Part shown: positions 2,207-27,873 of the stretch, piece by piece
Layout of the letters: every line of letters starts with the position of its first letter
Position numbering within the stretch: the first letter of the stretch is position 1
Assembly (NCBI GenBank): GCA_009777175.1
Contig: WRMI01000001.1
Coordinates: 108,436-172,435, forward strand
DNA length: 64,000 nucleotides
Reading direction: 5' to 3'
Source of the DNA: Marinilabiliaceae bacterium
GTDB taxonomy: Bacteria > Bacteroidota > Bacteroidia > Bacteroidales > Marinilabiliaceae
Notes under the pieces: model-generated
The model's database searches: none
What the model saw: the letters and a program-made list of their open reading frames with translations, nothing else
Told to the model about the DNA's origin: nothing
Program-made: the position numbers and the translations under genes

Positions 2207-2636
2207 TTTTTTATAGTGAATGAGAAAATGAGTGTAGAGGAGCACCTCTTGCGGTCCCCCACTATATAAAAATGAGTAAAAGAATGATTGTTCGCGTTGG
2301 CTTTCAGTGTGTTTCTCGTTGTCGTGTCGCTATCTGCCTATACCTAATACCTAAAAGCGGTTTGGCGCATCGGCTGCAGTAGCCACGCTACAAGAACGCC
2401 TTTTTTGTTAGAAAAACTCTCCATTTTTTCTCTGTTTTGAAAATGCAAATTAACATATCAAATGCGACATCTTTAGCTTAAGGTTTCTTTTTTATTAATG
2501 ATTTGTATTTTAATGTAATAGCGTATCCCAAGCCATGAGTTCTAAATTTTCACCCAACATTTGTTTTTACATTACACTTTACACTTTTTTTGTAATAATA
2601 AAAAAAAACATTACTTTTGCATTTTTAAAAATAGAT

Positions 2637-5375: not shown

Positions 5376-6696
5376 AAATTACAACCGAACTCTTTCAATA
5401 AAAATGTTTTGGACAATTATTGTCGCCTGCGGAATTGGATATGCAATCGGTGGCAGTTTTTGGCTGTTTTTTACGGTTTTGTTAATTATTGAGATTATTT
5501 CTATTTCAAACCTTATTTTTTTCTTAAACCGTACAAACCGACAAATAAATTTTTTTGTAAAAGCCGTTAAAAATGATGATACAACCCTACGTTTTCCAAA
5601 TTCCTCTGGAAATAAGATAATTAACGAACTACATTCAAGCCTAAACGAACTAAACTCAACTTTGCAGGATTTAAAAATTAAAACTCAAATACGCGAAAAA
5701 TATTTCAGTGAAATAATGCAAAACATCGATACAGGAATCATCGTTTTCAATGAAAAAGGTTTTATACTGAACGTCAACCGTTCTTTATTAGAAATGCTTG
5801 GATTACAGGTACTTACACATGTAACACAATTAGATAAAATTGATAAAAACATAAAAAATGAGTTGATGTCTATTTCTAATCACTGTCGTAACTCCCTTAT
5901 TATCAGGCGTAACACCGAGTTAATCACATTAAGCATAGGTTGCACTATCATTGAATTGAAAGATGAAAAAGTAAAACTCGTTACTATCCAAGACATTCGC
6001 AGCGAAATAGAAAGAACAGAACTCGATTCGTGGATGAAACTTATTAAAGTACTTAATCACGAAATAATGAACTCGTTAGCACCTGTAACTTCCATCGCTC
6101 AATCGCTTAAAAATATTTGGGAAAACAACAATAGTGACAATATTTCACCCAACATAACCAAAACCATTGAAGGACTTGACGTTATTGTTGAAAGAGGTGA
6201 TGGATTGATGCGTTTTGTGCAAAATTATCGAATGTTTACGAAAGTACCCGAAATTTGTCCCATTGAGGTTGATATTCAGGCATTTTTTGATAGGGTGAGT
6301 ATTATTGTTTCACCCATGAAATCCGAATATGACGCAACAATAATAATTCATCCGATAAATCCATCTTTCAAAATAAGTATTGACGAGCAAATGATGATTC
6401 AAGTAATTATTAATCTCGTAAAAAATGCATGCGAAGCAGTAAGTGGAAATAGTAATGGTTTGATAGAAGTTTTTTGTCATCGTGATAATAATCAATCAGT
6501 TGAAATTCATGTATGCGACAACGGTGTTGGAATTCCTGACGAAATTATTGATGATATTTTTGTGCCTTTTTTTACTACAAAACAATCAGGAACGGGCATC
6601 GGATTAAGTTATTCGAGGCAAATTTTGAGAGCCCACAACGGCTCTATTAGCGTTAGATCTAAGGAAGGAGAAACAGTTTTTATAGTTAGAATTTAG
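5365..6696 (+). CDS. Sensor histidine kinase, cognate of the upstream regulator
   Basis: PAS-like region, [15 protein letters not shown]-box, NACEA N-box, [21 protein letters not shown]; overlaps the regulator stop by 11 nt. Confidence 0.93.
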
Positions 6697-6704
6697 TTTT
6701 TTTA

Positions 6705-6860
6705 GTGAATAAGTGTAGGGGCGCACCCTTGCGGTCGACCACCTTGTAACAAATGAGTGAATAAGTGTAGGGGCGCACCCTTGCGGTCGACCACCTTGTT
6801 ACAAATGAGTGAATAAGTGTAGGGGCGCACCCTTGCGGTCGACCACCTTGTAACAAATGA
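6705..6860 (+). repeat. Three tandem 52-bp repeats, followed by (gtgaatga)n
   Basis: gtgaataagtgtaggggcgcacccttgcggtcgaccaccttgtaacaaatga at 6705-6756, 6757-6808, 6809-6860; one difference (gttac in copy 2). Confidence 0.95.
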
Positions 6861-7146
6861 GTGAATGAGTGAATGAGTGAATGAGAAAAAAATAAGAATT
6901 CCTCTGACTTACTCCGTAAGGCGATGCATTGAATTTATTGAAATGAGTTATATGTAGATAACCCCGTGTAGGGGCGTACCCTTGCGGTCGACCGTAAGCG
7001 CAATTCGGGGCACCAAACAGATGAGTGATGAGAGAATCCTGTTGGGGATGTAATATTGGTAGAAAAATGAATGAATGTTGTAGGAGCAAACCTGCGTGTT
7101 TGCCCAAAATAAAATAAAATAATAATAACATAATAATAATTTAAAA

Positions 7147-8409
7147 ATGAACATATTAATTTTAGGTTCTGGGGGCAGGGAACATGCTCTCGGATGGAAA
7201 ATCAGGCAAAGTCCGCTGACTAAACATCTCTTTTTTGCACAAGGTAATGCGGGAACTGCCTCTCTGGGTATCAATATCAATGTTGATTATAATGATTTTG
7301 AGGCAGTTAAACAAACAGTTTTAGAAAATAAAATTGACTTAGTGGTCGTAGGACCCGAAGAGCCTTTGGTAAAGGGAATTGTCAACTATTTTTTTAATGA
7401 CAAAGAACTAAACGGGGTTAAAATTATTGGACCATCCAAAAATGGCGCTCAATTAGAGGGTAGTAAGGATTTTGCAAAAAAATTTATGCATCGGCATAAT
7501 ATTCCAACTGCACGCTATTTGTCGATTAAATCACATAATATTGTCGCTGCAATGGATTTTATGAAACAATTGCAACCCCCGTATGTCCTTAAAGCAGACG
7601 GATTAGCAGGCGGAAAAGGAGTCCTTATTATTGACGATTACGCTCAAGCATGTTTAGAATTAAAAAATATGCACGCAGGAAAATTTGGCGACGCAAGCAA
7701 AATTGTGGTTATTGAAGAATTTCTGAAAGGAAGTGAATTGTCTGTGTTTGTGCTTACTGACGGAGAAAATTATCTCATTTTACCCGAAGCAAAAGATTAC
7801 AAACGGATTGGGGAAGGTAATACAGGTCTTAATACGGGCGGAATGGGCGCAATATCTCCCGTACCCGCAGCAGACACTGATTTTATGAAAAAAGTAGAAG
7901 AACAGATTATTAAACCCACTATTAATGGTATAAAATCGGAAAAAATTGGCTACAAAGGGTTTATCTTCTTTGGAATAATGAACGTCAACGGAAATCCATA
8001 TCTCATTGAGTATAACGTCAGAATGGGAGACCCTGAAACGCAAGTGGTTTTGCCGAGACTCAAAAACGACATCGTGGATCTATTTATTGCGCTTCATAAT
8101 AAACAATTACAAGAAAAAACAATAGAAATTTATAATGGTTTTGTTGTAACAATAGTTTTAGTATCAGGCGGCTACCCCGAAAATTATAACAAAGGAATAA
8201 AAATTTTAAATATTGAAAATGTAGACAACAGTATTCTTTTTCATTCGGGGACAGCAATTGAATATGGCAAATTAGTTACCAACGGCGGTCGCGTTTTTGC
8301 AGTTACTTCCTTTGGTGAAACCATAGAATCCGCAAGAGAACAAGCAATTGATAGCGCTAATTTAATCAATTTTGAAGGAAAATATTTCAGAAAAGATATT
8401 GGGAGCTAA
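7147..8409 (+). CDS. purD: Phosphoribosylamine--glycine ligase
   Basis: MNILILGSGGREHALGWKI, KADGLAGGKGV, YNVRMGDPETQ. Confidence 0.96.
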   Translation: MNILILGSGGREHALGWKIRQSPLTKHLFFAQGNAGTASLGININVDYNDFEAVKQTVLENKIDLVVVGPEEPLVKGIVNYFFNDKELNGVKIIGPSKNGAQLEGSKDFAKKFMHRHNIPTARYLSIKSHNIVAAMDFMKQLQPPYVLKADGLAGGKGVLIIDDYAQACLELKNMHAGKFGDASKIVVIEEFLKGSELSVFVLTDGENYLILPEAKDYKRIGEGNTGLNTGGMGAISPVPAADTDFMKKVEEQIIKPTINGIKSEKIGYKGFIFFGIMNVNGNPYLIEYNVRMGDPETQVVLPRLKNDIVDLFIALHNKQLQEKTIEIYNGFVVTIVLVSGGYPENYNKGIKILNIENVDNSILFHSGTAIEYGKLVTNGGRVFAVTSFGETIESAREQAIDSANLINFEGKYFRKDIGS

Positions 8410-8905: not shown

Positions 8906-11200
8906 TCAGAAAATCTTGCGCAAAAATTTAATTAAGAAAAATTCTTTTGTTTTAGTTAGGTTTTTTTCTATCTTTTCCTCTTTATTTGTAGTATCAGATA
9001 TTTCGTCGGTTTCTTTTGCAGGTAAAGGAATATCAGGCTTTGGTGATGAGGAAAAATCCTCTTGAATCACACTTTTTTCTTCCAAATAAGCATTCTTTTC
9101 CTCCAAATTCACACTTTTGTCATTCAAATCGACACTTTTGTCATCCAAATTAACACTTTTGTCATCCAAATAAGCATTTTTGTCATTCAAATTAACGCTT
9201 TTGTCATTTTTATTTTTAACTTTCTTTTTAGTATGTAGTTGTTTAACTTTTGGGAAACAGTTGTAATTAATAGTTCCATTTTCTTTTATGTATGCATATA
9301 ATGCATCAAAAAAAGTGTCACCTTTCAAAGTAGAGTAATCACCAATTATAAATAATTTTTTTCGTGCTCTTGTAATTGCCACATTAATTCTTCTGTAATC
9401 TGCAAGAAATCCAATTATTGAATGGTGATTTGACCTCACAAGGCTTATTGCTATTACATCTCTTTCTTGCCCTTGAAAACCGTCTATTGTTTTTAATGTA
9501 ATCAATTTTTTTGATAGGAACTTAAAAAATGTTTTATCGGCATAAATAATTTGCCTTAATAATTTTACTTGTGCAGAATATGGTGAAATTATTCCAAAGG
9601 AAATTTTTTCTTGAACTATTCGTTCTTCGCCAATTTTTATCATATAATCCGAAACAATTTTCAACATTAGTTTAACTTCTTTTTTATTAAAAATGCTTGT
9701 ACCATCTTTTTCTCTTTCTTCGGTAGATTTATTATTTGATGTATTTATCCATTCTATTGGTATATCGTTGTTTATCAGTGTTTTATTTCGAACATAATCG
9801 GCAGCGATTAATTTGTTATTGTAAAACCATTTTGATGAAAAATTCATAATTTTTTCGTGCATTCTATATTGTTTTGTTAACAATTTTGCACATTCAGGTT
9901 TTCTTTCAATAATTTTTTCAAATAATGTGTGCATAAGCCCGTCTTGTGCGGCTTGATGTGATTTAATGGTTGGTGGCAGTTGTTTATGGTCGCCTGCGAA
10001 AATTACTCGTTTGGCTTTTAATATTGGAACCCAACACGCTGGTTCTAAGGCTTGTGCGGCTTCGTCGATGAAAACTGTTGAAAAAGTAAAATGTTTAAGC
10101 ACTTTAAGCGATGAGCCAATCATTGTCGCAGCTACTACTTGACAGTCTCGAAATATTGATGATTTGATTTGTAGTTCTAATGTGTCGGCATAATATTTGT
10201 ATTGGTACAACTCATTTTTAAGTTTTATACGTTTTAGTGTTCTTTTTTTTGTTTTATTTAATTCCTTTTCTAAGTTTTTAATTTTTTTTCTACTTGAAAG
10301 AAGTTCTATATAGTATGGATGTTCATAATATTGTGTGTCGAAAGTAACTTTCAGTAGTTCGTCTGTAACTTTAGCGGGATTTCCTACTCTGACAACATTT
10401 ATATCACGTTCCATAAGTCGTTCGGCAAGAATATCAACAGCAATATTGTTGTATGCACATATCAAAACTTGTGTTTCGGTTTTCAAAGTTTCTATTATAG
10501 CTTCAACAAGCGTTGTAGTTTTTCCTGTACCTGGCGGTCCGTGTATTACCGCAACGTCAAGTGAAGATAATATATGGCTGACAGCAGTTTGTTGTGATTC
10601 ATTTAACCATTGATTAGTAAATGGTTTGCACTTTACATATCGTGCCTTTTGACTTCCAAGCATAATATCTCTCAAATTTGCCAATCTATCACCATCGGCG
10701 ACACTGATAGCGTTAATTGCATTTTCCATTACAGTGTAAGTATATTGACTAAACGTCAGATGTATGCCAATTCCTACATTGTGCTCCATCCAAAGATGTG
10801 ATTTTTGTGAATAATATGTTACTTCTACTTTATTTTCACGAACCAAACTGATTAATCCGTCTGTAAAATTAATTATATTGCCTTGTTCTGTATCTATTTG
10901 AAAAATTTTTACAGAACTGCCCGGTTGAAAGGAATGTTCATAGTCTATGTCGGCAGAAAAATTAAAAATTACGGTTATTTGTCCCTCTTTTAATTGGTTT
11001 TTCTTGTTGAACGATAAAGGATAAAAACATATTCCCTCTTCTTTGGATTTCTCTATTTTCTGTAAAGAAAATTCTTGAAAACGTTTTGTAAAAAACTCAT
11101 CATCTTCTTTTTTTTCGAGCCATAAAAGATGCTTTAACTTTTCTATCTTTTTCTTTACAATTGTATACATTTCATTGAAATGGAATAATATTTTCTTCAA
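8906..11200 (-). CDS. UvrD/Upf1-like superfamily I helicase (DNA2/NAM7, IGHMBP2-like); likely start at 11170
   Basis: [64 protein letters not shown]; internal ATG at 11170 lies right after the M24 stop (TGAAATG). Confidence 0.88.
9059..9205 (-). repeat. In-frame 21-nt coding repeat, seven 7-aa units in the helicase C-terminus
   Basis: [49 protein letters not shown]. Confidence 0.95.
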
Positions 11201-26013: not shown

Positions 26014-26120
26014 TACTTTGTTGAAATTGTGAAATGGGAACATATACAACATTAAGAAGACCTGCTAAATGAAATTGCGAATTACATATTGAAAATTATG
26101 AATTACGAATTTAAAATACC

Positions 26121-26225
26121 TATTCACTTATTTACTTATTTACTTATTCACTTACTCACTTATTCACTCATTTACTCATTTACTCATTTACTCATTTACT
26201 CACTCGCTTATTTACTCATTCACTA
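26121..26225 (+). repeat. Octamer-type tract (TTTACTCA/TTCACTTA variants) ending 9 nt before the MFS start codon
   Basis: attcacttatttacttatttacttattcacttactcac...catttactcatttactcattcacta. Confidence 0.92.
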
Positions 26226-27494: not shown

Positions 27495-27800
27495 ATATTA
27501 GAGTGTAGATATTAGAGTGTAGAGTATAGTTGTTGGAAATGCCCCGAATTGCGCTTACGCTTATTCGGGGTTATCTACATGGCACTCCTTACGGAGTGCT
27601 ACAATGTGGGATGTAGAGAATATGTGGGGTTTGTGTCTCAACTTGCCCTTAGGACTTGAGAATACTATGAGTTTCGGAACAAACCCTGAAAAACATCTCT
27701 TATTAACGACACCAATACCACAAGAAACGGTAGCGCATTCGATATTCAGCAGCACTCGGTAGAGTGCAACGTAGATAACTCCGAGTTAGCGTAAGCGCAA
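27495..27800. repeat. Composite intergenic repeat: TAGATAT/TAGAGTG heptamers plus two '(C)CCGA..GCGTAAGCGCAA.TCGGGG' elements
   Basis: tagatattagagtgtagatattagagtgtag; gccccgaattgcgcttacgcttattcggggttatctaca; gtagataactccgagttagcgtaagcgcaactcgggg. Confidence 0.8.
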
Positions 27801-27873
27801 CTCGGGGGATCTTCAAAAAATGCAACATCTTTAGTTTGTGGTATCATTTACATAATCCTTTGTATTTTAACTA

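Follow-up and report, generated by a model that had tools for sequence, protein, structure and literature searches.

Background

REP elements are very common, and the ways in which they spread and change are poorly understood. REPs located inside palindromes have been described as GTAG-15 of A. variabilis, GTAG-23 of T. roseum and CGTC-1 of H. neapolitanus (Di Nocera et al. 2013, PMC3733652). That survey detected no empty target palindromes in A. variabilis or H. neapolitanus, and CGTC repeats were listed there for Bacteroidetes but GTAG repeats were not (PMC3733652). IS elements with REPs as their insertion sites are also known (PMC1525189). The substrates of TnpA-REP enzymes are GTAG hairpins in single-stranded form (PMC8266576), and RAYT subclass 2.4, for which a motif table and an in-frame REP have been given, has been described for Cyanobacteria and Bacteroidetes (PMC6006769).

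Here we analyze a locus in which a REP-type hairpin (element B) lies in the tip of the second hairpin of another dispersed repeat (element A). The locus is in the window, by which we mean the whole 64,000-nucleotide stretch that was analyzed, on contig C1 of a 3.09-Mb metagenome-assembled genome (MAG; 112 contigs, 82% complete). As in the described GTAG-tagged REPs (PMC3733652), the GTAG of B immediately precedes a GC-rich imperfect hairpin on the 5' side, and B is present in hundreds of copies, singly or in tandem clusters. The present case differs in that the host belongs to Bacteroidales, that the host palindrome A itself bears GTAG, and that filled host palindromes occur alongside about as many empty ones, a comparison made within one genome, an incomplete MAG. 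REPINs (PMC3116915) are likewise built of GTAG REP units, whereas B occurs mostly as direct tandem or single copies rather than as inverted doublets. The present repeats also resemble bacterial interspersed mosaic elements and the E. coli REPs that have alternative loops, in that they are mosaics of short palindromes between genes in which different loop types coexist; the long loop here is, however, a different REP family that has a GTAG tag of its own.

Structure of the window site

The site occupies the gap between a histidine-kinase-like gene (end 6696) and purD (start 7147), whose predicted protein has its nearest records, at about 56-63% identity, in Bacteroidales and other Bacteroidota, so that the host probably belongs to the order Bacteroidales. 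An Rfam search of window positions 6400-7400 gave no match. The features of the site, together with two short A copies elsewhere in the window, are as follows.

6704-6871, plus strand: 52-bp tandem array of 3.2 units, with one B copy per unit
6715-6740, 6767-6792 and 6819-6844, plus strand: B copies of the array, all GGGGCGCACCC (read directly)
6911-6948, plus strand: first hairpin of A (hairpin 1), ACTCCGTAAGG...AGT, immediately upstream of GTAG (read directly)
6922-6945, plus strand: apex cassette of hairpin 1, CGATGCATTGAATTTATTGAAATG, which elsewhere also occupies the tip of hairpin C
6953-6966, plus strand: left arm of hairpin A, TGTAGATAACCCCG, with GTAG at 6954-6957; the identical arm is found in short copies (read directly)
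6967-6993, plus strand: apex cassette B, 27-bp TGTAGGGGCGTACCCTTGCGGTCGACC, a GTAG tag with an imperfect REP-type hairpin (read directly)
6994-7010, plus strand: right arm of hairpin A, GTAAGCGCAATTCGGGG, in which AATT has no left partner in the window copy (read directly)
7080-7105, plus strand: another hairpin with a GTAG tag, GTAGGAGCAAACCTGCGTGTTTGCCC, built like B (read directly)
27541-27579, minus strand: intact short A copy (read directly)
27771-27807, plus strand: second short A copy, with the stem variant CCGAGTTAGCGTAAGCGCAACTCGG (read directly)

The earlier note had described one dispersed repeat nested inside another at 6955-7015. The two families and their nesting are as quoted there, since the three parts (A-left, B and A-right) can be read in order, although they span 6953-7010; the intact A copy that it cited at 27541-27579 on the minus strand is also present. 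Its view of the bracketed segment as a discrete unit agrees with the absence from the composite of the CCTTGTAATAAATGAG tail that usually follows B. A precise swap at the palindrome apex, however, finds no support, as the junctions differ among copies and 7 bp of A are missing here.

A 21-bp tandem repeat is located at window positions 9065-9208 inside a long minus-strand ORF (8906-11200); this ORF looks like a helicase, and the repeat encodes a heptad-like tail.

Elements B and A

Element B is a GTAG REP-type hairpin with the sequence GTAGGGGCG[C/T]ACCCTTGCGGTCG[A/C/T]CC, and its consensus folds into a GTAG-tagged stem-loop. GTAG immediately precedes the GGGCG.ACC-CTTGC-GGTCGCCC stem, within the 0-2 nt 5' that characterize GTAG REPs, and the copy number is high, as is also expected of GTAG REPs (about 202 copies in the host genome at no more than 3 mismatches, against 0 in the control); the copies in the window are intergenic. 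Stand-alone B is found almost always after GAGT or AAGT within TGAGTGAATGAG tracts, often in tandem and with a CCTTGTAATAAATGAG-like tail behind it, and its arrangement in single copies or direct tandem arrays is not that of a REPIN, an inverted REP pair with a short spacer. TGAGTGAATGAG-type octamer tracts, where B usually resides, abound in the spaces between genes (window 26117-26224 and many other loci). At window positions 2234-2262, a degenerate B-like hairpin (GTGTAGAGGAGCACCTCTTGCGGTCCCCC) is followed by a TGAGTAAAAGA tract.

Element A is a dispersed intergenic palindrome with two hairpins flanking GTAGATAAC. Its copies have in common hairpin 1 (for example GCACTCGGTACGAGTGC or AACTCCGTAAGGAGTT), a linker ACGTAGATAAC and hairpin 2 (CCCCGAATAAGCGTAAGCGCAATTCGGGG); hairpin 1, in several stem variants, is found upstream of nearly all copies. 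Two flank contexts were distinguished, namely (i) CCCCAC...CACGCAGCAGCACTCGG and (ii) AAATTCCTCTGACTAACTCCGTAAGG in TGAGTGAATGAG-type tracts, and the copies in context (ii) are nearly all short. We did not file A as a canonical REP, because four bases (ATAA) separate its GTAG from the CCCCG stem, more than the 0-2 nt of that class. One A copy (L018, minus strand, 1512) has a second hairpin that continues into another dispersed repeat (CCCCGAATCGATTTTGCGCAATTCAG), which suggests a join at a short shared sequence.

As single-stranded DNA, hairpin 2 of A folds well (z = -5.7), and the fold of the composite is just slightly better than those of its shuffles (z -1.25). The stem of the short form is 8 bp long and contains pairs that covary (A on the left and T on the right in 19 copies, G and C in 10, a mismatch in 3). 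Folds of the composite leave AATT of the right arm unpaired, as a vestige of this 8-bp stem; since this remnant comes from a stem whose pairs covary in the short copies, the short form is probably ancestral.

Composite and short copies

A search of the host genome with a strict A-left...A-right pattern gave 45 matches, 25 composite and 20 short. The reversed-pattern control gave no match, and chance can hardly account for the pattern. A wider set comprised 86 copies (48 composite and 38 short), a set in which composites are over-represented because some loci were found via a composite query, and which includes a few degenerate copies. A unique insertion was rejected on the basis of the 25 composites in the exact-pattern search: the window copy is one member of a repeat family with exchangeable tips, not a one-off insertion. 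The earlier note had pointed out that the short version would be a deletion if all copies carried the longer form; in fact, short and composite tips coexist at many loci.

Composites carry just the GTAG and hairpin part of B. Their left junctions vary (CCCCGT, CCCG, CCCGT, CCCTGT, CCCA and others), and their right junctions are of two types under a simple rule, GTAAGCG as in the window in 16 copies and AATAAGCG, AAAAAGCG or TAAAAGCG in 32; both AATT and AACT are seen in their right arms. At another locus (L134, minus strand, 4454), further tip content was observed in the form of a CATTGAATTTATTGAAATG cassette joined straight to the A right arm (GAAATG|CAAGCGCAACTCGGGG).

Neither A nor the composite was found in 118 relatives, exact matches to them were absent from the genome contig collection, and plasmids had none. 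The sister species has B-like sequences only, as single copies with 28-bp matches.

Tip state and flanking sequences

Tip state and flanks are largely unlinked. Among copies in context (i), tip state was not predicted by flank similarity (p 0.51 upstream, 0.32 downstream). On the upstream-flank tree of 67 copies at least 19 changes of tip state are required (bootstrap 17-20), five of them forced by starred branches, and the shuffled mean of 22.6 is near this number; the tree of all 86 copies requires at least 21 changes, four of them forced, with a shuffled mean of 28.4. These numbers are rough, because the flanks span only about 70 columns and could themselves recombine, and the tip state is somewhat clustered in the 86-copy set, in part because of tandem near-copies. 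The window copy groups with 11 short copies in a starred clade of the 67-copy tree (95/100) and with 9 in a starred clade of the 86-copy tree (97/100), and it is the sole composite in each. Two copies on contig C7, separated by just 240 bp, differ in their tips although their upstream flanks are almost identical.

Source of the window tip

The B of the window copy and the three B copies of the adjacent array are one base apart (GGGGCGTACCC versus GGGGCGCACCC): at the C/T site of the consensus, the window copy has T and all three array copies have C. The 52-bp tandem array is therefore probably not the source of the window B. The T type also prevails among the B sequences of composites (25/29), whereas stand-alone B is mostly of the C type (62/74). 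The nearest match to the window tip is a composite on contig C59 (L128:5597), which matches both the tip and the right arm, barring one C in the left arm. This closer match, together with the C/T difference, disfavors a local origin from the array, and the idea that the neighboring tandem unit had freshly jumped into the palindrome is not borne out. Judged from these sequences, an economical reading is that the window tip was transferred from another composite, and for the window copy gene conversion between A copies is no worse an explanation than transposition.

Origin of the composite tips

The reading that we prefer, with a probability of roughly 0.65, is that a GTAG REP became lodged in the tip of palindrome A, after which short-patch gene conversion spread the tip state. 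At some point in the past, a hairpin of B would have been placed into the tip of the second hairpin of A, most likely in a single-stranded DNA event, either an insertion of the RAYT type or a template switch at a stalled hairpin. Several independent insertions of B into A are also conceivable, in view of the heterogeneous junctions and of the two right arms, AATT and AACT, of composites. The tip state would then have been exchanged among A copies through their common arms, and the window copy would be a short A that was given its B tip by another composite and not by the adjoining array.

Alternatively, every composite, the window copy included, could be a separate insertion, with a RAYT or a similar single-strand transposase repeatedly placing B hairpins into the A tip exposed on the lagging strand. 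The heterogeneous junctions and the occurrence of both right-arm alleles in composites would fit such recurrent targeting, as would the resemblance of the tail-less B to a GTAG and hairpin unit, the RAYT-like gene of the host genome (see below) and the REPs inside palindromes of other species (PMC3733652). We nevertheless consider recurrent insertion unlikely: the B sequences of composites are mostly of one subtype and not a sample of stand-alone B, the window tip is almost identical to that of another composite, and the inverted doublet, regarded as the unit that moves (PMC3116915), is lacking in B.

A composite ancestor from which the short copies arose by repeated deletion of B appears still more doubtful, although short copies do not outnumber composites and the flank tree contains many changes of state. 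Deletion would have to recreate the full 8-bp stem of the short copies with its compensatory A-T/G-C changes, the composite retains the unpaired vestige of that stem, and the copies in context (ii) are nearly all short. Collapsed or chimeric joins between abundant repeats, conceivable in an incomplete MAG of 112 contigs, are very improbable given at least 33 composites in distinct flanks, many of them deep inside contigs, and a reversed-pattern control without a match.

A RAYT-like gene in the host genome

The host genome contains one full-length RAYT-like gene, on contig C58 (177 aa), and a truncated second copy just downstream, with a GTAGAGGCGCACCTACATGTGCCC hairpin between the two (L145:12868-13613). 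The gene matches Pfam Y1_Tnp above the cut-off, and the closest NCBIfam model to its protein is REP_Tyr_transpos (E 5e-18; 65.3 bits, under the cut-off of 80); there was no match to the protein in PDB. It has the motifs NHIH, WQ and YIINNP, and a GTAG REP (GTAGGGGCGGGTTTCAAACCCGCCCC) lies in frame between HUH and Y, in agreement with the features of subclass 2.4 (NH[IFV]H, WQ, YIxNNP and an in-frame REP between HUH and Y; PMC6006769). The G-C pairs at the base of the B stem are a further likeness to the TnpA-REP system of this subclass; on the other hand, the REPs inside and just downstream of the gene are related to B but not identical to it. Matches to the RAYT family were found in 48 of the 61 relatives searched; near the RAYT genes of relatives A was not seen, but other GTAG hairpins were. 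As judged by its motifs, the C58 gene is a possible candidate for the machinery.

Other hairpins with tip cassettes

Two further hairpins, hairpin 1 of A and the sister element hairpin C, have removable tip cassettes of 24-25 bp, and one cassette is common to both. In hairpin C (GCATTCCGTTAGG^AATGCATCGCTTGGTAGAAA), the position of the caret is empty in 28 copies, filled with CGATGCATTGAATTTATTGAAATG in a few and with CGATGCWTTGAGCTTGTCGAAAWG or a near variant in four. Hairpin 1 of A is empty in 36 of 43 scored copies, and the other seven, including the window copy, have CGATGCATTGAATTTATTGAAATG at the equivalent place. Therefore, several hairpin tips hold removable cassettes in the host genome. 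The earlier note had expected several different cassettes at the same position of a modular mobile element; this was seen in the sister element, hairpin C, with its empty, CGATGCATTGAATTTATTGAAATG and CGATGCWTTGAGCTTGTCGAAAWG tips. The hairpin C pattern occurs in two of 395 genomes of the class, the host genome and one with a chance-like match.

We tentatively raise the possibility, although we consider it unlikely, that the tips of intergenic hairpins in this lineage serve generally as docking sites at which discrete, exchangeable cassettes of 24-30 bp are gained and lost, with at least three families involved (A hairpins 1 and 2, and C). If this is the case, a mechanism of tip-targeted single-strand insertion or template switching that has not yet been described would be needed, because one cassette is common to two families with little other homology.

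Significance

REPs in palindromes are already known; what is new here is that filled and empty hosts are present in similar numbers and that tip and flank are nearly independent. Dozens of filled and empty copies of one host hairpin form a natural data set for comparing transposition with gene conversion, and the genome adds a case from Bacteroidales in which GTAG-type REPs are found together with a candidate RAYT gene. The coexisting tip states point to hairpin tips as sites of exchange.
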